In this document: in pieces, positions 9,613-63,772 of the stretch
Layout of the letters: every line of letters begins with the position of its first letter
Position numbering within the stretch: the first letter of the stretch is position 1
Source: Bacteroidota bacterium
GTDB lineage: Bacteria > Bacteroidota > Bacteroidia > B-17B0 > Aurantibacillaceae
DNA: 64,000 nt
NCBI GenBank assembly: GCA_025363015.1
Contig: JANYEQ010000124.1
Coordinates: 1 to 64,000 of the forward strand
Reading direction: 5' to 3'
The notes under the pieces: model-generated
What the model was told of the DNA's origin: nothing
Database searches by the model: none
What the model saw: only the letters and a program-made list of their open reading frames with translations
Position numbers and translations under genes: made by a program

Positions 9613-11724
9613 ATGAAGCTATTTAGATTTGTACTTTTTTTAGTGGGTATGCTATTTAATGTTTCTACGTATTGTTCGGTGGAACAAGATTCATTGGTGC
9701 TTTATAAAAACTTAAGGCAAGCCTCTTCTAACCCATTAAAAGCACAAGCAAACATCGCCTTAGCTAAATTCTTTTTAGCGCGTAACTTATCGCAAGCTCA
9801 AAACTTTGTAAACGCTGCCAAATCATTATCGCAAAGTAGCAGTAGTAACGAGGGCTTGGCAGATGCTTTTTGTGTAGAAGGTGAAATTAACTACCTATTG
9901 GGTAATTATGCTTTATCTAAAAGTAATTATACCGAAGCTTTATCCCATATTAATAAAGCAACCCAACCACTCAGTATGGGCGATGTGTATTCGGGACTTG
10001 GTAAAAATGCGTATAAGCTGGATGAGTTTGATGCGGCCTTGACACACTATAGCGAAGCACTTTCTATTTTTGAAAAACATAATTATAAAGATGGACTTGC
10101 GGGTGTATATATAAATTTAGGATTGCTTTATGAAGATATGCTAAATCAAGAGCAAGCGATTGAATATTATAATAAAGCGTTAACCATTTCTATTGATAAT
10201 AATGATATCGTAGCGGAAGCGTCTTGTTATACTAATTTAGGAAATATTTATTGCGATCAAAAAAAATATGAAAAAGCCATTGAAGCTCTTCAATTATCCT
10301 TAAAACTCAAGCGTTCCATTGGCAACAAAAAAGGCGAGGGTTCATCTTTAAATAATTTAGGCGCTACCTATTATGCCATGCATCAAGAAGATAAGGCCTT
10401 ATACTATTTTTTAGAGGCGTACAAAATTTATATAAATTTAAACGACTATAAAAGTAGTTTTCCATCATGTAATAATATTGGTTCCATTTATCACGAAAAA
10501 AAACAGTACGATAAGGCCATGGAGTATTATTTAAAATCGTATAATATTTCCTTAAAACTTGGTTCTATTTCAAAAAAAATACTGTGTTTAGAAAGTCTAA
10601 CTCTGCTTAACCGAGATGTGGGTAATTATAAACAGGCTACCGATTTTAGTATTGAATGCTTAAGCTTAAAAGATACGCTCTATAATAAAGACCAAGCCGA
10701 AAATACTACCGAAATGCAAACGCGTTTTTCAACCGAAAAAAAGCAACAAGAAAACGAAATATTAAATTTAAAAGTAAAGAGCGAGTCGTTTATAAAAACC
10801 ATTTTTATTATCGCCGCTTCGTTATTGTTAGCCCTCGCTTTTTTTATTTTTAGGGGTTTACAACAAAAACAAAAAGCTAACACTGCCCTTGAAGAAAAAA
10901 ATAAAATAATTGAAGAACAAAAACAAACTGTAGAACATCAAAAACATGTTGTTGAAGAACAAAATAAAGATATAATGGATAGTATACGCTACGCTGAACG
11001 AATACAAACCGCTATTTTACCACCCGAAAAGCAATGGTATAGCTTGTTACCTCAATCATTTGTGTTTTATAAACCTAAGGATGTTTTAAGTGGTGATTTT
11101 TACTGGATAGAACAAAAAGGTGATTTTATATTTGTGGCAGCCGCTGATTGCACTGGGCATGGTGTACCCGGAGCGTTAATTTCTATTGTTAATTATAATT
11201 TATTAAACAAAGCTGTTCTTGAAAAAGATTTAAATGATCCAGCAGATATTTTAAATTATGTCAATCATCAATTAACATTGGCATTGCATCAAACCTTTCA
11301 AGAATCGTCGGTTAAGGATGGAATGGATATTTCATTATGTATATTAAATACTAAAACTTTTGAACTTCAATTTGCTGGAGCTAATAACCCTATTTACATT
11401 ATCCAACAACATGAATTAAAGCAATTAAATGCTGATAAATTTCCGGTTGGTGCTTTTATTGAAGAGCAGGTGCAAAGCTTTACAACAAAGACTTTTCAAA
11501 TGCAAAAAAACAGTTTATTATACTTGTTTTCCGATGGCTACCCCGACCAATTTGGAGGAGAAAAAGGTAAAAAATTTATGAGTAAAAATTTAAAAACTTT
11601 ACTCATAAATAACGCTCATTTACCAATGCCTCAACAAAAACAACTATTAGAAAGTACATTTAAAAATTGGGTTGGTGATTTAGAACAAGTGGATGATGTT
11701 ACTGTAATTGGAGTGAGAGTATAA
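9613..11724 (+). CDS. TPR sensor / SpoIIE-type PP2C serine phosphatase, membrane anchored
   Basis: This 703-residue protein probably dephosphorylates a regulatory phosphoprotein in response to an envelope signal. The layout is: signal peptide (1-22), about seven TPR units (about 85-350, for example LGNIYCDQKKYEKAIEALQLSL), a transmembrane helix (about 393-414), a coiled coil rich in EEQK/EHQK (about 420-455), a linker with DSIRYAERIQTAILP (456-470), then a PP2C/SpoIIE domain (about 480-703). The metal-binding acidic residues are visible in SGDFYW (494-499), ADCTGHGVPGA (511-521), SDGYPDQFGG (640-649) and QVDDV (692-696). It stands alone with flanks of 252 and 220 bases. The probable substrates are SiaC-type proteins, three of which are encoded in this window; that link is inferred. 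Confidence 0.9.
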   Translation: MKLFRFVLFLVGMLFNVSTYCSVEQDSLVLYKNLRQASSNPLKAQANIALAKFFLARNLSQAQNFVNAAKSLSQSSSSNEGLADAFCVEGEINYLLGNYALSKSNYTEALSHINKATQPLSMGDVYSGLGKNAYKLDEFDAALTHYSEALSIFEKHNYKDGLAGVYINLGLLYEDMLNQEQAIEYYNKALTISIDNNDIVAEASCYTNLGNIYCDQKKYEKAIEALQLSLKLKRSIGNKKGEGSSLNNLGATYYAMHQEDKALYYFLEAYKIYINLNDYKSSFPSCNNIGSIYHEKKQYDKAMEYYLKSYNISLKLGSISKKILCLESLTLLNRDVGNYKQATDFSIECLSLKDTLYNKDQAENTTEMQTRFSTEKKQQENEILNLKVKSESFIKTIFIIAASLLLALAFFIFRGLQQKQKANTALEEKNKIIEEQKQTVEHQKHVVEEQNKDIMDSIRYAERIQTAILPPEKQWYSLLPQSFVFYKPKDVLSGDFYWIEQKGDFIFVAAADCTGHGVPGALISIVNYNLLNKAVLEKDLNDPADILNYVNHQLTLALHQTFQESSVKDGMDISLCILNTKTFELQFAGANNPIYIIQQHELKQLNADKFPVGAFIEEQVQSFTTKTFQMQKNSLLYLFSDGYPDQFGGEKGKKFMSKNLKTLLINNAHLPMPQQKQLLESTFKNWVGDLEQVDDVTVIGVRV

Positions 11725-29200: not shown

Positions 29201-29578
29201 ATGCAAGCTCTTAAAATACCAGCAACCAACGAAACCCCAGCTATAACTTTTGACAAAGCCAACGCTGTATTTAGTATTATTGGGCGTTCGATGCCCGAAA
29301 ATGCTTCAAAATTTTATAACCCCGTAATGGATTGGCTACTAATTTATACCCAAAATCCCAATCTCCAAACTAATTTAGATATAAATTTAGAATACTTTAA
29401 CACCGCTTCATCAAAACTAATATTAGATATCTTAGTTCTGTTTAGTAATCTTACAAAAATGCCAAATCATAGCCTAACTATTAATTGGCTTTACGAGAAA
29501 GGCGATGAAGATTTGTACGAATCAGGCGTTGGTTTTTCAAGCCTAATAAACCTACCCTTTAATATGGTGAGTTATTAA
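29201..29578 (+). CDS. SiaC-family regulatory phosphoprotein (DUF1987), stand-alone copy
   Basis: This 125-residue protein is of the DUF1987/SiaC type. In Pseudomonas, SiaC is switched by a kinase (SiaB) and a PP2C phosphatase (SiaA). Family features are FSIIGRSMPENASKFYNPV (about 24-42), and LEYFNTASSKLILDIL (63-78) with Thr68 at the position equivalent to the SiaC phosphothreonine as I recall it. The acidic end is EKGDEDLYESG. No kinase or phosphatase is adjacent. It is flanked by an unrelated dioxygenase and a LolA-like gene, with a promoter-like element upstream. Confidence 0.88.
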   Translation: MQALKIPATNETPAITFDKANAVFSIIGRSMPENASKFYNPVMDWLLIYTQNPNLQTNLDINLEYFNTASSKLILDILVLFSNLTKMPNHSLTINWLYEKGDEDLYESGVGFSSLINLPFNMVSY

Positions 29579-44599: not shown

Positions 44600-44628
44600 T
44601 AAAAAAACCCCGCCTTTTGCTGGCAGGG
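44600..44628 (-). terminator. Rho-independent terminator after the siaB-siaC cluster
   Basis: On the minus strand, CCCTGCC (44628-44622) pairs with GGCGGGG (44614-44608, one U-G wobble) around a 7-base loop. It is followed at once by seven T residues (44607-44601). This is a clear intrinsic terminator 20 bases after the siaC stop, closing the cluster that runs from 49790. Confidence 0.93.
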
Positions 44629-44648
44629 TATAGTTTTGGTATTAAAAT

Positions 44649-45029
44649 TTATTCGGCAACCATTACCATTTTAAATGGCACATTAATTATTGCTTGGTAA
44701 TCTTCGCCAGCTTCTAACATATCTTCATCGTCTTCTTCGTAATGCCAATTAATTGTAACGGCGCTACCACCTTTGTGAATACCTTCTAGTTTTTTAAATA
44801 CATCTAAAATACATTTAGATGATGATGTATTAAAATATTCTAATTGAACATTAACGGTGGTTGCGGGTTTAGCGGTGCTAGAGTATTTATCTAACGAATC
44901 TACTAAAGGTTTATAAAACTCAATAGAATTTTCGGGAATTGAACGTCCTTTAATTTCTAAAACTCCACCTGCTAAATCAAAACTGATGCTTGGTGTTTTT
45001 GGTGTGCCTTCAATTGCGTATTTGTCCAT
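44649..45029 (-). CDS. SiaC-family regulatory phosphoprotein (DUF1987)
   Basis: This 126-residue small phospho-switch protein is of the DUF1987/SiaC type. It has [20 protein letters not shown] (about 24-43) and [16 protein letters not shown] (63-78), with Thr68 in the position equivalent to the Pseudomonas SiaC phosphothreonine as I recall it. An acidic [14 protein letters not shown] segment (about 103-116) follows. It ends the cluster propeller-PP2C / lipoprotein / SiaB / SiaC, 29 bases after siaB, and is followed by a strong terminator. The expected chemistry is phosphorylation by SiaB and dephosphorylation by the PP2C protein at 46581. Its downstream partner is unknown because no GGDEF protein is present in the window. 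Confidence 0.92.
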
Positions 45030-45058
45030 AATTATTATTTTTGTTTTATTGTGATAGT

Positions 45059-45610
45059 TTAATTTTGTTGTGAGGATACTTTTATATTAAGTGTAAAGAA
45101 AGAAATTTTATTATCAATTTCCAAAAAATTATACTCTAATTTTTCGCCTGTTTTTCGGGCAATGTCAATCATTCCTAATCCGCCTCCACCTTTTAACGAC
45201 ATTTCGCCATTATTAAGTACTTTTTTGTAATATTCTTTTAATTCTTCTTTACTTAGTGCATTTACTTCATCTAACCTGTTTTTCAGACCTTGTATATTTT
45301 CGTTTAGGATATAATTACCAGTAAAAATGGTGTATTTAGACTCTAATTTACCAATCATAAAAATAGCAGAGCGGTTTTTATCCATTTCTACTTCGGTAAC
45401 TTCATCTAAATGATGATAAAGGTTTTGTAAACATTCTACCAAAACATTATATACCTTTTTTTTCATTTTAGGTTCTTCTTGCATTGTATCCATTTTATTT
45501 TCCATAATTTGGAGAATAGAGGTAAGAAGATCGGAAGTTATTTCGCCTTTAAATGAGAGCAAAACATTATTTCGCTCCATTTTATCATATATATCAAACA
45601 CATCAACCAT
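45059..45610 (-). CDS. SiaB-family protein kinase (DUF6272, GHKL-like)
   Basis: This probably phosphorylates the SiaC protein encoded next. The 183-residue protein resembles anti-sigma-factor-type GHKL kinases. It has an N box NVLVECLQNLYHH (55-67, with Glu59 and Asn63) and a glycine-rich lid GGGGLGMIDIARKTG (141-155). Residues 1-45 form a helical dimer region. There is no sensor domain, so it depends on a partner for input. The gene follows the lipoprotein gene after 27 bases and precedes siaC by 29. Pseudomonas has the same kinase-then-SiaC order (siaABCD), which supports the assignment. Confidence 0.88.
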   Translation of the reverse strand: MVDVFDIYDKMERNNVLLSFKGEITSDLLTSILQIMENKMDTMQEEPKMKKKVYNVLVECLQNLYHHLDEVTEVEMDKNRSAIFMIGKLESKYTIFTGNYILNENIQGLKNRLDEVNALSKEELKEYYKKVLNNGEMSLKGGGGLGMIDIARKTGEKLEYNFLEIDNKISFFTLNIKVSSQQN

Positions 45611-45637
45611 AAAAGGCTTTTTTTATTTAGGGTTGAA

Positions 45638-46537
45638 TTATTTTAATTTAAATGCTACTGTGTTTCCGTTTACTGTAAAAGTTGCGTCGTCGTCGCATGT
45701 GCCATTACCAAAATCAACAGTACGGGTTTTAAAACCATCTGGCGTTAAATCCATAATACCTTTTTGTACGAATTGGCATGATTTTCTTTTTACTAGGGGC
45801 GTAGTTGATGGTATATTAAGTGTAAAGGCTCTGCCTTGGCGATTAACACCCGATGCAGTACCGAATACATATGTTATAGGGTCTCCAGCAGATGTAGCAT
45901 CACCTTTTGGATAGGTAGTGATGGTTCTATCAAAATTATATTTAATAACCCAGGCCGCAGTTTGACAAAGGCCACCTGTTAATTTAATGTTATAGGTAGT
46001 AAAAGATGGAACAACTGTACTAGAAGCAACTGTTGTTACAATAATACTATCGCATGAATAAGAAATGGTACGTTGAGGAACAGATTCTATAGTTTTGTGA
46101 CCAATTAATTTTAAAATCATTTGACTATTGGGATTTCTTAAGGGTCCAGTGATTCTGATATTCCACTTACCTACACGCATTTTTCCATCAGTAAAAGAGT
46201 TACTGCAACTTGCAGCGGCAGCTAAATCTAATTCGTATATTGGAGCATTAACATATTTTCCGCCCACTATTGTTGTGTCGGCAGTGGCACGATTTAACCA
46301 TTTTAAAGTATCACAGGCGGAGCTACTAAATCTATCAACACCACCAGCACCTTTAGTTTTAATGGCATGGCTGTTGGTTGTGGGAACAATAGCAGCGTAT
46401 TCTTGATCTGCAACCGCATTATCTACGGCTGATTGTGTTTCATTATCTACCTCGGTAGTTTCTTTTTTATGACATCCTACAAAAAACAAGGTAAGGCTAC
46501 ATACTAGTGCAAAAGCTATATTTAATGATTTTTTCAT
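45638..46537 (-). CDS. Lipoprotein of unknown function in the sia-like cluster
   Basis: The 299-residue protein starts MKKSLNIAFALVCSLTLFF, then VGC, giving a signal peptide with a lipobox (Cys22). Residues 23-80 are low-complexity and acidic. The rest is beta-rich with scattered cysteines (SSACDTL, AASCSNS, GLCQTA, KSCQFV, GTCDDD), which could form disulfides. I recognise no family. It sits between the propeller/PP2C gene and siaB, and has its own predicted promoter. An accessory ligand-binding or sensing role for the signalling cluster is possible but unproven. Confidence 0.75.
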   Translation of the reverse strand: MKKSLNIAFALVCSLTLFFVGCHKKETTEVDNETQSAVDNAVADQEYAAIVPTTNSHAIKTKGAGGVDRFSSSACDTLKWLNRATADTTIVGGKYVNAPIYELDLAAAASCSNSFTDGKMRVGKWNIRITGPLRNPNSQMILKLIGHKTIESVPQRTISYSCDSIIVTTVASSTVVPSFTTYNIKLTGGLCQTAAWVIKYNFDRTITTYPKGDATSAGDPITYVFGTASGVNRQGRAFTLNIPSTTPLVKRKSCQFVQKGIMDLTPDGFKTRTVDFGNGTCDDDATFTVNGNTVAFKLK

Positions 46538-46561
46538 ACTACTTAAATTTTAAATGTTATA

Positions 46562-46591
46562 CAAATATATAATAATTTTTTTATATTTCAA
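46562..46591 (-). promoter_or_regulatory. Promoter inside the 3' end of the propeller/PP2C gene
   Basis: On the minus strand, TTG at 46591-46589, then a 19-base spacer, then a perfect TATATTTG (TAnnTTTG) at 46569-46562, form a typical Bacteroidota promoter. It lies 24 bases before the lipoprotein ATG (46537). The element overlaps the last codons and stop of the propeller gene. The lipoprotein-siaB-siaC genes can therefore be transcribed without the phosphatase gene. Confidence 0.7.
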
Positions 46592-49500
46592 TACCTACTA
46601 CTAAAACATCATCGACTTGTTCATGATTCACTTTCCATAACTCAAAACTTTTTTCTAATTCTAAGCGTTGTTCGTCGGGCTTACTTAGGTGAATACTTGT
46701 TAATAGCTCGTTAAAGCGCTTTACCATGTATTTTTTGCCTTTATCGCCGCCAAATTGATCGGCATAGCCATCGCTAAACATGTAAGCCATACAGTTATTG
46801 GCGGTGATTTGATGGGTTGTAAATTGCCTATTACTATCTAATTGTGCGCCGCCAACTGGAAATTTATTGCCATCGTATTTTAAATATTCGCCTGCCTTGT
46901 TTATGAGTACTAATGGCCTATTGGCACCAGCCCATTTAATTACTTTTGTTTCGTAGTTGATGGCAATTAGCGACACGTCCATACCATCATTGGTATTAAT
47001 TTCGTTTTGACCTTGGCGCAGGGATTCCTGAACACCTTTATGCAAATTATTTAAAATTTCACCTGGTTCAATAATACCTTTTTCTAACACAATTTGATGT
47101 AAAAGATTGTGCCCAATCATACTCATAAAAGCACCAGGCACACCATGACCAGTACAATCAACTACAGCAAAAATATTAAAGCCATTTTTTTCGGCAAACC
47201 AATAAAAATCTCCACTGACTATATCTTTAGGTTTATATAAAATAAATACTTTTTTTAGCTTTGTAAAGATGACATCTTTTGAGGGTAAAATAGCCTCTTG
47301 TATCCGTTTAGCATATTGGATACTACTTGTGATATCGTGGTTTTTTTCGGCAAGTTCTTTGGTGCGTTCGGCTACTTTGTTTTCTAACACTTTATTTTCT
47401 TTTTTAATGGCTTTGGTTCTATACTGCGTAAATGCCACTACAGATCCTGTTCCAAAAATTATTACTAATATATAAAACCAAGTTGTTTTATAAAACGGAG
47501 GCACAACGGTAATTTTTATTTGGTGCGGGGTTTCATTCCACACACCATCGTTATTTGCCGCTTTTATTTTAAGAGTATACTCACCGCCAGGCAATTCGGT
47601 ATATGAGATGTAACGTATATTACTAGGGGCTGACCAATCGTTATCGTAGCCCTCTAATTTATAACTAAATTTATTTTTTATGGGGTCGGTATAATCTAAG
47701 GCTACTACCTCGAACTGGAAGTAATTTTCGCGCCAACTTAATTTTAGGTGTTGTTTGTAATTTATAAGCGAATCGGTTTCTATATCTTTACCCCCTCGCT
47801 TATAGCTTACAATATAGGTTTGGGCAGGTACTAAATTATCTTTTATGGTATTAGGATTAAATACATTAAAGCCTTTTGCACCACCAAAATACATAGTGCC
47901 TTTTTTAGAAACGTAGCCTGCTCCTATATTGTACTCAGTATTTACTAAGCCATCTTTTGTATTATAATGTTTAAATATAATTTCTTTTTCAGGGAGCTGG
48001 GGATTAAATTTAATAATGCCATTGTTAGAACTCATCCAAAAGTTATTTAGACTGTCCTTTAAAATAGAATACAAATAGGTATTTGGAAGACCATCTTTTT
48101 CGTAAAAACTTTTAAAGGTATTGTTTGGTAATAGCTTACTTAATCCCTTTTCTGTTGCTATCCAAATATTACCATTTTTATCTTCGTTTAGGGCTAAAAC
48201 CGTATTTGCAGCAATTTGGTTTTGCTGTTTATCATTTTTGTAAGTTTGAGTAATTTGTAGTTTATCACCTCTTGGAAAATCTTTTAATTTCATTAATCCA
48301 CCATCAATCATTCCTAGCCACACATTTTTTTTAGAATCACTAAAAATTGTATATATGCTAGGGCTGGATAGGCCATCGGACTGGGTGTAGTTTTTAGCTT
48401 GTAAAGTTTTTAAATTAATTTCGAATAAACCATCGCTGACAGAGCCAGCATATAAGTAGTTTTTATTAACCATTAGGCACGTTATGGTACCCCCAAGTTT
48501 TTCATCTAATACTTTTTTAATTTTTTTGGTTTGAGTGTTATAACAAATTAGACCTTTACCATAAGTACCAACCCAAATATTTAAACCTTCTTCGTATAGA
48601 CTTAAGGCATAATTACCGTCTAAACATTTAACTAAATCTTCTTCTAATTTTTTAGTTTTTTTATTGTATTTATTTAATAAGCCTTCGCCTCCTAAAATAA
48701 AATCATTCTCCTTCTCTAAAAAAGAATATATGTTTTTAAAATTATAATTTTCGTCATATTCATTAATTGGAAATTTTTGAGTTTGTTTGAAAGATACATC
48801 AACTCCACCAACCTCTGAGCCTAGCCATATATTCTCATCCTTATCAATATAAACATACCTTAATAAATTATTACTAATTGAATTTAAGTTTGCTGTATTT
48901 AATGAAATAGATGCTTTTTCTGAAAGTAAATTGTAAATCATAAATCCAGAACCTGTTGCGGCATAGATTTTATTTTCTTTTATCGTAATTTTCCTAACAG
49001 CATTTGTACTTTCTCCAAACGATAAAAAATTAATTTTACCTTCAATTTCAAACGAGTCAATATCTATTTTAAAAATTCCATTGCCTATTGTGGCTACGTA
49101 TAATTTCCCTCCATATCCTTGAATATCGTATATTCCCTCTAATTCATTTAAATTAAAATTTGAGTAATCGGGTTTAACTAAATTTACTCTCTCTAATTTA
49201 TTATTAATTAGTGTCCAAATTCCTTTTTCTTTAGTGCCTATATAAAATAAATTTTTTACGCATAAAAAAGCCCTAACATCAATTTTCCCATCAATAGGGA
49301 AGGATATTGTTTTTATGCTTTTAGTTTTTAAATTTATTATAAACAATCCTTCATCGCTTCCTACTATAGCATTTATACTATCGTATAATGCAATAGTATT
49401 TATTTTTACATTTAAGCCCTTCGAACTATAGATAGGTGTAAATTTTTCAGTTACAGGGTTAAAAAAATTCAAGCCTTCGCGAGTACCCACTAAAATTAAA

Positions 49501-49790
49501 TCTGGTTTCAATTGCTTTATGCAAGTTATATCACTGCTTGAAAGTGAATTAGGATTTGTAGGTTCATTTTTAAAAATTTTTATCTGGTAACCATCGTACT
49601 TATTCAGTCCGTCCTGGGTTCCAAACCACATAAAACCTTTATCGTCTTGCATAATGCAACTCACATATAGCGAGCTTAAACCATCGTGATTGGTTATATG
49701 TTTAAACCGTAATTGTTGCGAAAACAAATTAGTTACAAAACAAATTAATACAAAAAAATAAGTATGTTTTAAATTTTTAATAATAAGCAA
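46581..49790 (-). CDS. Two-component-propeller sensor / SpoIIE-type PP2C phosphatase
   Basis: The 1069-residue protein is predicted to sense an extracytoplasmic signal and dephosphorylate SiaC. Layout: signal peptide (1-24); about twelve propeller repeats (about 30-640, for example DDKGFMWFGTQDGLNKYDGY); Y_Y_Y beta-sandwich (about 700-765, NDWSAPSNIRYISYTELPGG); transmembrane helix (about 771-790); coiled coil (795-820); SSIQYAKRIQEAILP linker (822-836); PP2C domain (about 850-1069). The metal-site acids are in SGDFYW (859-864), VDCTGHGVPGAF (877-888), SDGYADQFGG (1006-1015) and QVDDV (1058-1062). I use TTG 49790. The frame has a stop just upstream; an ATT five bases into the ORF would be an alternative. 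It starts the sia-like cluster. Confidence 0.93.
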   Translation of the reverse strand: MLIIKNLKHTYFFVLICFVTNLFSQQLRFKHITNHDGLSSLYVSCIMQDDKGFMWFGTQDGLNKYDGYQIKIFKNEPTNPNSLSSSDITCIKQLKPDLILVGTREGLNFFNPVTEKFTPIYSSKGLNVKINTIALYDSINAIVGSDEGLFIINLKTKSIKTISFPIDGKIDVRAFLCVKNLFYIGTKEKGIWTLINNKLERVNLVKPDYSNFNLNELEGIYDIQGYGGKLYVATIGNGIFKIDIDSFEIEGKINFLSFGESTNAVRKITIKENKIYAATGSGFMIYNLLSEKASISLNTANLNSISNNLLRYVYIDKDENIWLGSEVGGVDVSFKQTQKFPINEYDENYNFKNIYSFLEKENDFILGGEGLLNKYNKKTKKLEEDLVKCLDGNYALSLYEEGLNIWVGTYGKGLICYNTQTKKIKKVLDEKLGGTITCLMVNKNYLYAGSVSDGLFEINLKTLQAKNYTQSDGLSSPSIYTIFSDSKKNVWLGMIDGGLMKLKDFPRGDKLQITQTYKNDKQQNQIAANTVLALNEDKNGNIWIATEKGLSKLLPNNTFKSFYEKDGLPNTYLYSILKDSLNNFWMSSNNGIIKFNPQLPEKEIIFKHYNTKDGLVNTEYNIGAGYVSKKGTMYFGGAKGFNVFNPNTIKDNLVPAQTYIVSYKRGGKDIETDSLINYKQHLKLSWRENYFQFEVVALDYTDPIKNKFSYKLEGYDNDWSAPSNIRYISYTELPGGEYTLKIKAANNDGVWNETPHQIKITVVPPFYKTTWFYILVIIFGTGSVVAFTQYRTKAIKKENKVLENKVAERTKELAEKNHDITSSIQYAKRIQEAILPSKDVIFTKLKKVFILYKPKDIVSGDFYWFAEKNGFNIFAVVDCTGHGVPGAFMSMIGHNLLHQIVLEKGIIEPGEILNNLHKGVQESLRQGQNEINTNDGMDVSLIAINYETKVIKWAGANRPLVLINKAGEYLKYDGNKFPVGGAQLDSNRQFTTHQITANNCMAYMFSDGYADQFGGDKGKKYMVKRFNELLTSIHLSKPDEQRLELEKSFELWKVNHEQVDDVLVVGIEI

Positions 49791-55893: not shown

Positions 55894-56310
55894 TTATACT
55901 TTTGGTATGTAATTAAATTTTAAACCACACATGCCTTCCATTTCTTTACCAGCATCAAGCATATCTAAATCATCAACAAAATATATCCAATCAATTTCAA
56001 AATTGATTTTAAATTTTTCGAGGCCTGTGCCTTTTAATAACGAAAACAAATCAAACAAAACTTTAGCGGAAGTTGAGTTAAAGTAATCTAAATCAACCTT
56101 TAACTTTTTTGTAATATTTGTATTCGTTGATCCAATATCGTTAAGTACATATGTGTAATTAAAATAATCATTAAACCACTTAAATACTGGCTCATAATAT
56201 TTTAATGGATTTTCGGGTCTGCTCTCACCAGAAATACTGTATTTATTTTCAACGTGATTTAACAAAATTGTAGGATTTATATCGTCTCCCTTTACATCAA
56301 GCGTTTCCAT
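55894..56310 (-). CDS. SiaC-family regulatory phosphoprotein (DUF1987), divergent copy
   Basis: This 138-residue SiaC/DUF1987 protein is encoded with the adjacent SiaB-like gene. It has YSISGESRPENPLKYYEPVF (about 24-43) and LDYFNSTSAKVLFDLF (74-89). At the phospho-acceptor position the motif is N-S-T (Ser79 or Thr80), where the other two copies have N-T. A longer insert with an NTNITKK segment precedes it. The end carries DDLDMLDAGKEMEG. It overlaps the SiaB-like gene by 14 bases, which indicates coupling. Confidence 0.85.
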   Translation of the reverse strand: METLDVKGDDINPTILLNHVENKYSISGESRPENPLKYYEPVFKWFNDYFNYTYVLNDIGSTNTNITKKLKVDLDYFNSTSAKVLFDLFSLLKGTGLEKFKINFEIDWIYFVDDLDMLDAGKEMEGMCGLKFNYIPKV

Positions 56311-56839
56311 AATTTGTGGTTGAGTTAATTTTAAAATGAATATTAAATAAAAAATTAGTGTTATGGTTTTTAAAATTATAAATACAACTATCTGTACGTA
56401 ATATCATATCTACCAATCCTAAACCAGCGGTATGTACTTCTGAGTAATTTTTATTAGAAATAATTTCGGCTTTTATTTGTTTTAGTTCGTCTTTAGTTTT
56501 TGAATTTAAAAAAAGTAATTGCGCGTTAATTTGTTGTTTTTGTGTTTCGTTTATTACATTAACCGTATTAATCACATAACAATCTTCTTGTTGCGATATT
56601 ATTAATAACGATTTATATTGTAGCATTTCATTTTCTGGAAAAAAATTGTGCTTGATAATATTTTCAACACATTCGTTAATGGCATTATATACTCTATTTA
56701 TAATTACAACTGGTTCGTTGTACGAAATTAGTTTTGCTTTTGTAATGCCCAGTACTTCGTTTAAAACGTATTTATCTATAAAGCCATAATAACTAAACAA
56801 TACGTTATTTGTATATAGTATTTCAGAAAGTGACTGCAT
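56297..56839 (-). CDS. SiaB-like protein kinase (DUF6272), divergent copy
   Basis: This 180-residue GHKL-like protein pairs with the SiaC-type gene that overlaps its end. The N box NAINECVENIIKHN (52-65, with Glu56 and Asn60) is intact. The lid is reduced to VHTAGLGLVDMILRT (about 135-149), with only GLG in place of the GGGGLG of the other SiaB at 45059. It may still bind ATP weakly or act only as a docking protein. It lies 18 bases after hemB in the same direction. Confidence 0.8.
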   Translation of the reverse strand: MQSLSEILYTNNVLFSYYGFIDKYVLNEVLGITKAKLISYNEPVVIINRVYNAINECVENIIKHNFFPENEMLQYKSLLIISQQEDCYVINTVNVINETQKQQINAQLLFLNSKTKDELKQIKAEIISNKNYSEVHTAGLGLVDMILRTDSCIYNFKNHNTNFLFNIHFKINSTTNYGNA

Positions 56840-56857: not shown

Positions 56858-57835
56858 TTATTTTTTTGATACTGCAAACTCTTTTGCAAAATACGTTAAA
56901 ATTGCACTTGCGCCAGCACGTTTTATACTTAATAAAATCTCATCGCGAACTCTCTCTCCATCTATCCAACCTTTTGCAGATGCGGCTTTAACCATTGCAT
57001 ACTCGCCACTTACATTATAAGCAGCAATTGGCAGGGTAAAATTATCGTTTAATAATTTAATAACATCTAAGTAACTTAATGCGGGTTTTACCATTAAAAA
57101 ATCGGCTCCTTCACTAGCATCTAAATCTGCCTCTAACAAGGCTTCTTTACTATTTGCAGGATTCATTTGATAGGTTTTTTTATCTCCAAATTTTGGGGCA
57201 CTATCCAAAGCATCTCTAAACGGGCCATAAAAAGCACTGGCATATTTTGCAGTATAGCTCATTATGCTTACGTCTGTAAAATTATTTTCATCTAATGCAT
57301 CGCGAATGGCTCCTACTCTCCCGTCCATCATATCGCTTGGCCCTATTATATCTGCGCCCGCCTCGGCTTGCGTTAAAGCCATTTTACACAAAATATCTAA
57401 GGTTTCATCATTAACAATTTTATTGTTTTTTACCAAGCCATCGTGCCCATCACTACTGTAAGGATCCATGGCTACATCTGTCATAATAACAGCTTCTGGA
57501 AATTGTTTTTTTATTTCTTTAATAGCAGATGGATAGAGTCCTTTTTTATTAAACCCTTCGCTTGCTTTTTTATCTTTTAGTACGTTGCTAATGCTAGGAA
57601 ATAAACAAAATGTGGTTAAGCCAAGTTTTAAACAACTTTCAATTTCTTTCAATAACAAATCTCCACTATATCTATAAATATTAGGCATAGACGCAATTTC
57701 CGACTTTTTATTTTTACCTTCTGTTAAAAATAGCGGGAAAATTAAATCGTTAGTTGTTACCCAATTTTCTTGCGTTAAGTTACGAATGGCCTGTGATTTT
57801 CTATTTCGGCGAGGGCGTTGAGGTAAATTATACAT
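56858..57835 (-). CDS. hemB: Porphobilinogen synthase
   Basis: This condenses two 5-aminolevulinate molecules to porphobilinogen in heme synthesis. The 325-residue protein has the active-site Schiff-base lysine segment MVKPALSYLDVIK (about 246-258). It has TDVAMDPYSSDGHDGL (about 119-134), where the zinc-cysteine site of other HemB proteins is replaced by Asp/Ala residues, pointing to the magnesium-type, zinc-independent form. GPSDMMDGRVGAIRDALD (about 166-183) is conserved. It belongs to a long leftward gene run. Confidence 0.95.
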   Translation of the reverse strand: MYNLPQRPRRNRKSQAIRNLTQENWVTTNDLIFPLFLTEGKNKKSEIASMPNIYRYSGDLLLKEIESCLKLGLTTFCLFPSISNVLKDKKASEGFNKKGLYPSAIKEIKKQFPEAVIMTDVAMDPYSSDGHDGLVKNNKIVNDETLDILCKMALTQAEAGADIIGPSDMMDGRVGAIRDALDENNFTDVSIMSYTAKYASAFYGPFRDALDSAPKFGDKKTYQMNPANSKEALLEADLDASEGADFLMVKPALSYLDVIKLLNDNFTLPIAAYNVSGEYAMVKAASAKGWIDGERVRDEILLSIKRAGASAILTYFAKEFAVSKK

Positions 57836-60841: not shown

Positions 60842-62245
60842 TTATTTTTTAATATGTTTACTTATATACTTTTCTGTTGGCATTAAGCTGTGCTGAATGC
60901 GGCTAGCATAATTTATGGAGTCAATTATTTCTTTTTGTTTTTGGTCAACAACAAGCTTTTGTTTTGTAATAATATCTTTTTGTTTGTTAATTTCTATATT
61001 GGCTTTAACCTTTTGTTTATAGCTTTTGTAAACAAAAATAATTAATACAATCATTATTAAAAACGCAACAATAAAAACGTTTAATTGAAATGATTTTTGT
61101 TTACTTAGCGCTAATTGTTTTTGGATTTCTAAATCTTTTACGATTAACTCATTGTCCTTTTTTTCGGATTGATACTGGGTTTGCATCATAGCAATTTGTT
61201 TACTATTATTTTCGGAATAAATAGAATCGGTGATGGCTTTATACTCATTTAAATAATAAGCTGAACTATCGGCATTTTTATAGTAGGCAGAAATTACTAT
61301 TAATCCTTCATAGGCATTTTTTAACCCAGTTAAATAGTTAGTAGATTGAGCTAAATTTTTAGCCAATAAATAATAAGTATGCGATTTAGTATAATTATTT
61401 AATCGCCCGTATATTAATGCCATGTTTGAATAGAGTTCGGATAAAGCCCTGGGTTCGTTAAAAGACATATACATTGGCAGGACCTGTGTAAATAAATTTA
61501 AAGCGTTTTTGTTATCGTAAGCATTTGAATAATTTTCGCCCAATGAAACTAAAGCATCTGCCAATAACAAAGAATCGCCGCATTTTTTAGCATTAATTAT
61601 AGACTTATTAAGAAAATAATTTGATTTTTGAATTTCATGTAAGCTTTGATAACAGCTACCCATATTTAAGCAACAAGAAGAAATGCCACAATCATCTTGT
61701 TTTAGTTCTCTAATTTTTAAAGATTTTTCAAAATAACTTAAAGCTATTTTATAGTTTTTTTGTTGGTAATAAAGTGTTCCAATATTATTACTTGCCCTAG
61801 ATATTCCATCATTATCGTTTAAAAATTCGGCAATAGTAAGGGCTTTTAAATAGTTTTTAGTGGCCTCTGCAAAATTACCCAAGTAATCGTAACATACTCC
61901 CATATTTGAATATACATCACAAATACCTTTAGTTTTTGTATTTAAACCATATAGTATTAATGCCTTTTTTAAATAGATTATTGCCGAATCATAATTTCCA
62001 GAATAAATATTACAAATACCTAAATAATTATTGCCTAAGCCTTCTCCTTTAATATAATTAACTTGTTTTGACTCGTTTAATATTTGCTTTGCATAAAGTT
62101 TAGCAGAGTCAATATTGCCTTTTAAATGTAATTTAAAAGTTTGCCCTAGTTTATAAAAATAAACACTATCTTTTTTTTGTGTAAATCCGCAAACTGACAG
62201 CATAAGATAGCTAACAATTAATATTAACTTTATTTGTTTAAGCAT
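60842..62245 (-). CDS. TPR membrane protein ending before the PP2C domain (truncated-type)
   Basis: The 467-residue protein has a signal peptide (1-22) and about seven TPR units (about 65-330, for example LGTLYYQQKNYKIALSYFEKSL-like repeats). It also has a transmembrane helix (about 388-405) and a coiled coil. It then has the linker DSINYASRIQHSLMPTEKY (442-460) that in full-length sensors leads into a SpoIIE-type PP2C domain. Here it stops seven residues later, with acs starting 3 bases downstream, so no phosphatase can follow. The last 91 bases nearly match those of its neighbour (62270). It is not a random break, because the shared end is conserved. Confidence 0.88.
   Translation of the reverse strand: MLKQIKLILIVSYLMLSVCGFTQKKDSVYFYKLGQTFKLHLKGNIDSAKLYAKQILNESKQVNYIKGEGLGNNYLGICNIYSGNYDSAIIYLKKALILYGLNTKTKGICDVYSNMGVCYDYLGNFAEATKNYLKALTIAEFLNDNDGISRASNNIGTLYYQQKNYKIALSYFEKSLKIRELKQDDCGISSCCLNMGSCYQSLHEIQKSNYFLNKSIINAKKCGDSLLLADALVSLGENYSNAYDNKNALNLFTQVLPMYMSFNEPRALSELYSNMALIYGRLNNYTKSHTYYLLAKNLAQSTNYLTGLKNAYEGLIVISAYYKNADSSAYYLNEYKAITDSIYSENNSKQIAMMQTQYQSEKKDNELIVKDLEIQKQLALSKQKSFQLNVFIVAFLIMIVLIIFVYKSYKQKVKANIEINKQKDIITKQKLVVDQKQKEIIDSINYASRIQHSLMPTEKYISKHIKK
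60850..60940 (-). repeat. Direct repeat copy A: 3' end of the first TPR gene
   Basis: These 91 bases match 62287-62377 at 86 positions with no gaps. They cover the codons for the linker and last residues of the TPR gene, while the rest of the two genes differs widely. Confidence 0.9.
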
Positions 62246-62269: not shown

Positions 62270-63772
62270 TTAATTACTCTTATTTTTAATGTATTTACTT
62301 ATATATTTTTCTGTTGGCATTAAGCTGCGCTGAATGCGGCTAGCGTAATTTATGGAGTCAATTATTTCTTTTTGTTTGTCTTCTAATAATAATTTTTGTT
62401 TAACAACTAAGGTATTTGCCTTTTGTTTTTGTTTAAAATTAATAATGCCAATAATTAAAAATATAGCTAATAAAATAGAAGCAATAATCACAACTAAATT
62501 AATTTGTTTTTGTTTTTCGAGTTTAGTTTTTGATAATTGCTGTTCTTTAGCTCTTAGTTGTTCTTGGCTTTGTTTTTCAAATAAAAATTCTTTTTGTGCA
62601 ATGCCTCTCAACTGTTCTTCCTGCTTTAAAGATTCATTGAATTTAAAATAAAGTTTAAAGTATTTTAAAGCACTGTCGGAATTATGTTTTTTTTCATACA
62701 CTTGAGAAATAACATTGCAAAGGGTTAAAATAAGTTTACTTTGCCCCTGACTTAACGCTAGGTCATATCCTTTAAATGCATATACTAACGAACTATCAAA
62801 ATTATTTTGATAGTTATAAATACTTGAAATATTTTGATAAACTTCGCATAGGGCAATTTTTCTATCGGTTTTTAAATTTAATTTTTCTGCTTCTTTTGCA
62901 AGTACAAAGGCTTGAGCATACTCTTTTTTGTTAATTAGTATTCCTCCTTTATTATTTAATGCAATAGAATAATGAAACTCATCCTTTGCAATAGAAGATA
63001 TTTTTAAAGCTAAATCGAGATAATAAATTGCAGAATCAACTTTATTTATCATTCCATAGGCGGTGGAAAAATCAATATAAATACCAGCAAGTTGATATTT
63101 ATCTTTATACAATTTACCGTAATTAACAGCTTTATTATAAAATTTTATGGATGTAGGTATGTCTTTTAAATTCATATACGTGTAGCCAATAGATTGTAGA
63201 GACGAAAGGATATTGAAGGTATCTTTTTTTGGCTCAAAATATTCTAAAGCCTTAAAATTATACTCAGCCGATTTTAAATAATTACCCTGTTGAAAATAGA
63301 TTAGACCTATGTTGTAATAAGTTCCAAACTCCTGGGCGGTATCGTTTATAAGTTTGGCAGTATTAATTTTTTCTAAATAATAAAACTCTGCTTTTTTAAA
63401 TTCTCCTAAATTATAATAAATAGCCCCCGTAATATTATTTGATTTTAATAAAACCTTATAATTGTTACTACGTTTAGCATTTTCAATAGCTTTACCAGCA
63501 TAAGCTTTAGCTTTGTTATAATTATTGTCGAAGTAATATATTTTTGATTTTTTAAAATAAGCATCTGCTAAAAAAAATAAATTATTCTGCTGCAAACTCA
63601 ATAATTCTAATTTATTAGCAATAATTAATGCTTGTGGACGATTATTAGTAACTATCGCATCGTACTCACTAATTAATTTTATGTAAGGCAACGAATCATT
63701 TGCGTTTTTTTGCCCTAAACTAATACTGTTTAAACAAAATAAACTTATAAATATGAAAAACCTGATGTACAA
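62270..63772 (-). CDS. TPR membrane protein ending before the PP2C domain (tandem partner)
   Basis: The 500-residue protein starts at TTG and has a signal peptide (1-20), TPR units (about 55-350, for example YYNIGLIYFQQGNYLKSAEY), a transmembrane helix (about 424-446) and a coiled coil. It then has DSINYASRIQRSLMPTEKY (471-489), ending ISKYIKNKSN. The architecture matches the intact TPR/PP2C protein at 9613, but the phosphatase is absent. It has a TAnnTTTG-type element upstream (63787-63794). It heads the leftward run, 24 bases before the second TPR gene. It is probably a sensor or scaffold whose partner is encoded elsewhere. Confidence 0.88.
   Translation of the reverse strand: MYIRFFIFISLFCLNSISLGQKNANDSLPYIKLISEYDAIVTNNRPQALIIANKLELLSLQQNNLFFLADAYFKKSKIYYFDNNYNKAKAYAGKAIENAKRSNNYKVLLKSNNITGAIYYNLGEFKKAEFYYLEKINTAKLINDTAQEFGTYYNIGLIYFQQGNYLKSAEYNFKALEYFEPKKDTFNILSSLQSIGYTYMNLKDIPTSIKFYNKAVNYGKLYKDKYQLAGIYIDFSTAYGMINKVDSAIYYLDLALKISSIAKDEFHYSIALNNKGGILINKKEYAQAFVLAKEAEKLNLKTDRKIALCEVYQNISSIYNYQNNFDSSLVYAFKGYDLALSQGQSKLILTLCNVISQVYEKKHNSDSALKYFKLYFKFNESLKQEEQLRGIAQKEFLFEKQSQEQLRAKEQQLSKTKLEKQKQINLVVIIASILLAIFLIIGIINFKQKQKANTLVVKQKLLLEDKQKEIIDSINYASRIQRSLMPTEKYISKYIKNKSN
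62287..62377 (-). repeat. Direct repeat copy B: 3' end of the second TPR gene
   Basis: This copy of the 91-base block at 60850-60940 encodes the same linker and end of the TPR protein. Five substitutions are present between the two copies. Confidence 0.9.

Follow-up and report, generated by a model that had tools for sequence, protein, structure and literature searches.

A leftward cluster of four genes in the genome of a Bacteroidota bacterium probably encodes a SiaABC-type partner switch whose most likely SiaC target is a membrane exporter, a reading to which we assign a probability of roughly 0.6. The cluster lies in the 64,000-nucleotide stretch that we analysed (contig JANYEQ010000124.1, positions 1 to 64,000; hereafter, the window) and runs from a propeller/PP2C sensor phosphatase through a lipoprotein and the kinase SiaB to SiaC (Table 1). 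The candidate target, a TerB-FHA-ABC (ABCG-like) exporter of ~1020 amino acids (aa) that we refer to as TABC, is encoded on another contig of the same genome. In Pseudomonas aeruginosa, SiaB and a PP2C phosphatase set the phosphorylation of SiaC (PMC7647112, PMC8457831, PMC7278518), and the single SiaC target that we found in the literature is the SiaD cyclase of Pseudomonas, where the switch turns on the messenger cyclic di-GMP. SiaC is widespread: roughly one in two Bacteroidia genomes in our sample has it, often in many copies, and our literature search for SiaC or DUF6272 (the family of SiaB) in Bacteroidota found nothing. An exporter as output makes the question of SiaC control in Bacteroidia testable; if the reading is true, a conserved phospho-switch has had its output moved from a second messenger to transport, and a partner switch directly controls membrane export.

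Components and conservation of the sia-like cluster

The four genes are spaced 43, 27 and 29 bases apart, and the coordinates and strand given for them in the first-pass annotation of the window were borne out by an open reading frame check, as was the good intrinsic terminator that it had placed after siaC. The sensor consists of a signal peptide, a periplasmic two-component propeller with Y_Y_Y (five Reg_prop repeats, 6.9e-24; Y_Y_Y, 3.5e-17), one transmembrane helix, the single hydrophobic helix (769-788) between these parts and the phosphatase, and a cytoplasmic PP2C domain of the SpoIIE type (PF07228, 4.6e-13); its TTG start is uncertain. The PP2C metal-site motifs SGDFYW, DCTGHG, SDGYADQ and DDV are all intact, the domain matches the PP2C domain of SiaA in the PDB (6k4e, 4.6e-31), and the C-terminal part of the protein scores 3.2e-50 against NCBIfam SiaA (171 bits, under the equivalog cut-off of 700). 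SiaB belongs to PF19788 (DUF6272; E = 5.8e-42), scores 165.5 bits against the SiaB_fam_kinase model NF038262 (cut-off 85), matches SiaB of PDB entry 6kko_A (5e-15) and has the nucleotide-site motifs ECLQNLYHH (N-box) and GGGLGMIDIARK (G-box). SiaC belongs to PF09345 (E = 2.5e-43) and matches SiaC of PDB entries 6kko_C/6k4f at about 2e-20 with the NTSS motif aligned; against NCBIfam SiaC it scores 2.2e-27 (95.5 bits, under the equivalog cut-off of 150). Within YFNTSSSK it has a threonine where P. aeruginosa SiaC has T68, a column that holds T or S in 81/81 aligned SiaC sequences.

Of the additions that the first-pass annotation had described, the propeller and Y_Y_Y are both seen, and the lipoprotein has a lipobox Cys; it matches no family in Pfam, NCBIfam or PHROG. 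Its AlphaFold model has a beta-rich predicted core, and Foldseek returned nothing significant and no PDB fold match, a negative that says little because the predicted local distance difference test score (pLDDT) of the model is only 66 overall, being higher in the C-terminal core. Orthologues of the lipoprotein are present in 25 other loci.

Table 1. Features of the window and the TABC gene of the same genome
Feature	Coordinates	Strand	Basis
SiaA-like sensor phosphatase (propeller/PP2C)	46581..49790	-	Pfam, NCBIfam, PDB match, metal-site motifs
Lipoprotein without known family, conserved cluster partner	45638..46537	-	orthologues in 25 other loci
SiaB-family protein kinase (DUF6272)	45059..45610	-	PF19788, NF038262, PDB 6kko_A, motifs
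SiaC phospho-switch protein	44649..45029	-	PF09345, PDB 6kko_C/6k4f
Intrinsic terminator 3' of siaC	44607..44629	-	8-pair stem, 6 G-C, then T run
Second SiaC paralogue	55894..56310	-	PF09345 2.8e-22; S at position 68
Second SiaB paralogue, overlapping second siaC	56297..56839	-	PF19788 1.6e-20
Third SiaC paralogue, no adjacent SiaB	29201..29578	+	PF09345 3.4e-35
TABC of the window's genome	G000:C50:1117-4191		other contig than cluster

The phosphatase-kinase-target order is that of P. aeruginosa, whose SiaA, SiaB and SiaC are matched by the PP2C protein, SiaB and SiaC of the cluster, including the NTSS phospho-site (PMC7647112, PMC8457831). The cluster differs from P. aeruginosa SiaABCD in its periplasmic propeller/Y_Y_Y sensor, the added lipoprotein, the lack of SiaD or any GGDEF protein, the aspartate that the alignment places where P. 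aeruginosa SiaC has R103, and scores below the NCBI equivalog cut-offs for SiaA and SiaC. The SpoIIAA/SpoIIAB/SpoIIE and RsbV/W/U switches likewise combine a PP2C phosphatase with a small GHKL-like kinase and a STAS-like target. The cluster shares with them the PP2C phosphatase and small kinase, and SiaC resembles anti-sigma antagonists (PMC7647112), but the target is SiaC (PF09345), the kinase is a DUF6272 protein and no sigma-factor output is indicated.

In the related genomes the order proposed from the window alone was found in the window's genus and in several other families. Most loci fetched from the genus keep propeller-PP2C, lipoprotein, SiaB and SiaC in this order, and the same four genes recur in further families (L089, L096, L099, L100, L217 and L224; the numbered loci come from a genome scan and are mostly from Bacteroidota metagenome-assembled genomes). 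Conservation of the window SiaC within the genus is high (97% to the nearest). Genus loci usually have an aldolase gene and accD downstream of the cluster and a glycosyltransferase gene upstream; we dropped these as SiaC targets, since they are conserved in the genus only and not across families. The sia-like reading thus stands on family membership by curated models of every component but the lipoprotein, on the kept acceptor and catalytic motifs, on the conserved order and on the lack of a GGDEF partner, to which we now turn.

A missing diguanylate cyclase and a candidate exporter output

The first-pass annotation had noted that SiaD is missing. No GGDEF domain was found in the window's whole genome (3.33 Mb, 99.99% complete) or in any of 60 relatives; SiaC occurs in 50 of the latter, in up to 15 copies, and the GGDEF search was positive in 8/14 control genomes. 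The lack of SiaD is therefore lineage-wide. In a phylum sample of 218 genomes, five genomes of the class Bacteroidia have SiaC, all five with TABC and all five without GGDEF, whereas the eight SiaC genomes of other classes have GGDEF in every case (8/8) and TABC in no case (0/8). A synthase of cyclic di-GMP (c-di-GMP) is thus absent wherever GGDEF was searched for among Bacteroidia: the window's genome, the 60 relatives and the class SiaC carriers of the phylum sample.

The output that the first-pass annotation had called unknown can be narrowed by genome comparison to a testable candidate, TABC. In several families, the gene adjoining siaC encodes a protein of ~1020 aa that combines TerB with an ABC ATPase and an ABC2 membrane domain. 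In the window's genome its TerB domain (PF05099) scores 28.0 bits against a cut-off of 24.4, and the exporter core comprises PF00005 (3.9e-30) followed by PF01061 (9e-20), with ABCG2 matched in the PDB. An AlphaFold model of the TABC N-terminus, built from 50 aligned sequences (pLDDT 82), matches the TerB structures 2h5n and 2ou3 in its helical part and gives a long run of FHA matches at residues ~128-236, where nearly all top hits are FHA. These matches are moderate (Foldseek probability up to 1.00, but best E of 0.03 and Z of about 6-8), and the N-terminus is accordingly predicted to have a TerB and an FHA fold, with moderate evidence for the latter. An ABC exporter with an N-terminal FHA domain is also found in Mycobacterium tuberculosis: Rv1747 is an FHA-FHA-ABC exporter whose FHA I binds pT237 of Rv2623, which down-regulates Rv1747 (PMC5549992). 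TABC differs in that TerB precedes its one degenerate FHA-like domain, its core is ABCG-like and it is tied to a SiaB/PP2C/SiaC switch.

Searched for via its N-terminal 263 residues alone, TABC was found in 49 of the 60 relatives, the window's own genome included. SiaC and TABC are both present in 48 of them and both absent from nine, with one genome having TABC only and two SiaC only, one of these merely 60% complete; 9/10 SiaC-less relatives therefore also lack TABC. A sample of 395 genomes of the class gave 190 with both genes and 173 with neither; another 23 have SiaC only, of which 11 are no more than 83% complete, and nine have TABC only (Fisher p ~1e-72, ignoring phylogeny). The two genes lie within 2 kb of each other in 34 cases from 16 families, against ~0.24 expected for 115 genomes with one copy of each gene per genome; the 34 include some pairs added as already known to be adjacent, and ~20 come from unselected lists. 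All 23 opposite-strand pairs are tail to tail, and SiaC is upstream in all 11 same-strand pairs. A second type of TABC stands either in PP2C-SiaB-SiaC-TABC operons (L097, L265, L266, L169) or in PP2C-SiaB-SiaB-SiaC-SiaC-TABC operons (L104, L163, L165). Moreover, two fusion proteins of 374-377 aa join the TerB/FHA region of TABC to SiaC (L160 7025-8149 and L161 8140-9273), their genes sitting between siaC and TABC. In the SiaC tree, the window SiaC is orthologous to the TABC-adjacent SiaC of other families. Taken together, this pattern suggests that the switch controls a membrane exporter instead of c-di-GMP.

As to how this output may have arisen, two loci from another class (L257 and L258) carry propeller-PP2C, SiaB and SiaC followed, after gaps of 2 and 38 bases, by a GGDEF gene whose product matches SiaD (7.5e-51). 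This cluster shares with that of the window the propeller, Y_Y_Y and PP2C sensor, SiaB, SiaC and the gene order, and differs in the GGDEF gene after SiaC and in the lack of a lipoprotein gene and, in those genomes, of TABC. Its SiaC branches just outside the whole set of Bacteroidia SiaC, as their sister (SH-aLRT 97), in a tree of 126 columns only in which many forks are unresolved. Since a homologous cluster with GGDEF attached exists in another class, the output was seemingly swapped from diguanylate cyclase to exporter; on the simplest reading, a propeller siaABCD module is ancestral and had its output replaced no later than the base of the class sample. For the broader proposal, that across Bacteroidia the SiaABC switch shed its diguanylate cyclase and came to gate TABC instead, with the TerB/FHA region reading SiaC or phospho-SiaC, we see about even odds.

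Proposed mechanism and competing explanations

By this account, a periplasmic signal read by the propeller, possibly with help from the lipoprotein, would determine how active the cytoplasmic PP2C domain is. Judging from family knowledge and the intact motifs, SiaB would phosphorylate SiaC on the conserved threonine and the PP2C domain would remove the phosphate. SiaC in one phospho-state might then bind the cytoplasmic TerB/FHA-like region of TABC and thereby switch ATP-driven export on or off. We infer from genome comparison the kinase and phosphatase steps at the window SiaC, its binding to TABC, the sign of that binding and the exported substrate.

Several observations weigh against TABC as the target. 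FHA domains commonly read phospho-threonine; the FHA-like domain of TABC has conserved S186 and N203-G204 and no clear GR/SxxH/NGT set, and with the canonical signature unrecognisable, phospho-threonine reading is merely a possibility. Part of the co-occurrence stems from common descent, and some genomes hold SiaC or TABC without the other. The window's own TABC is on another contig, so that in this genome orthology alone ties SiaC to TABC, and in genus relatives with long contigs the two are ~40-70 kb apart. Tail-to-tail neighbours are not co-transcribed. Finally, the type A TABC operon mostly lacks sia genes, with SiaC within 10 kb in 9/80 loci; proximity to type A being weak on its own, we base the argument on the directly adjacent pairs, the operons, the fusion and co-occurrence. 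SiaC is also often multi-copy, outnumbering TABC in many genomes, so other targets are likely to exist as well.

This last point leads to the possibility that the SiaABC switch has another output, be it an enzyme not yet recognised, an anti-sigma-like factor or more than one target, and that TABC accompanies SiaC for another reason. The up to 15 SiaC copies per genome against one to three of TABC, the many SiaC copies without TABC nearby, the structural likeness of SiaC to anti-sigma-factor antagonists (PMC7647112) and the 29 PP2C phosphatases of the window's genome all speak for it; we nonetheless consider it unlikely, as TABC is favoured by its co-occurrence with SiaC, by the TerB/FHA-SiaC fusion and by the 16 families in which the two adjoin, tail to tail or in operons, and in the inspected loci no gene beyond the cluster and the TABC operon adjoined SiaC as widely across families. 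Adjacency might instead be a frozen ancestral order without functional link, the cluster being a closed loop on the propeller phosphatase, or decaying. Indeed, 23 of the 34 adjacent pairs share one convergent arrangement, possibly from one ancestor, and the window's genus has lost the adjacency yet kept both genes. Frozen order becomes improbable, however, given that divergent copies of SiaC and TABC show a second arrangement, in operons, and given the fusion and the joint absence of SiaC and TABC from many genomes; a SiaC so well conserved in the genus is not decaying. Least credible of all is an ordinary SiaABCD system with c-di-GMP still as output and the diguanylate cyclase elsewhere in the genome or too divergent to detect: the L257/L258 cluster does have GGDEF directly downstream, but no hidden GGDEF partner was found in the window's genome or the 60 relatives by a search in which over half of the controls were positive, and the five SiaC-bearing class genomes of the phylum sample agree. 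TABC thus remains our preferred target.

Genes accompanying TABC and further sia genes

Two smaller proteins, a lipoprotein of ~300 aa (c11) and one of ~140 aa (c19), usually accompany TABC; neither belongs to a known family, and type A TABC usually closes a conserved c11-c19-TABC operon (L175-L254). In the window's genus, an extra ~160-aa secreted protein (L135 608-1111) is encoded directly before TABC. PADLOC and PHROG hits of TABC span the ABC ATPase alone, and a defence or phage origin was set aside, these hits being generic. Proteins of 356-360 aa in L104, L163 and L165 have SiaC at the C-terminus only. By Pfam on L097 and L169, CheR methyltransferase and CheB methylesterase genes head the GAF/PAS/PP2C-SiaB-SiaC-TABC operon (L097 2359-13519, L265, L266, L169), as if chemotaxis-type methylation fed the partner switch.

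The first-pass annotation overlooked two further SiaC genes in the window, one with its own SiaB; this second siaB-siaC pair (55894-56839, minus strand) adjoins a hemB-like gene (56858-57835). All three SiaC of the genome lie in the window within 27 kb. The genome has three SiaB-like proteins, the third of which stands alone on contig C7 (49231-49614). The 29 phosphatases, all of the SpoIIE type, far outnumber the known targets, there being only three SiaB-like kinases and three SiaC. Two tandem TPR proteins (60842-62245 and 62270-63772, minus strand) end at '..IIDSINYASRIQ.SLMPTEKYISK.IK', the point at which the full-length TPR-PP2C protein (9613-11724) goes over into its PP2C domain, as though each were a sensor that has lost its phosphatase domain.

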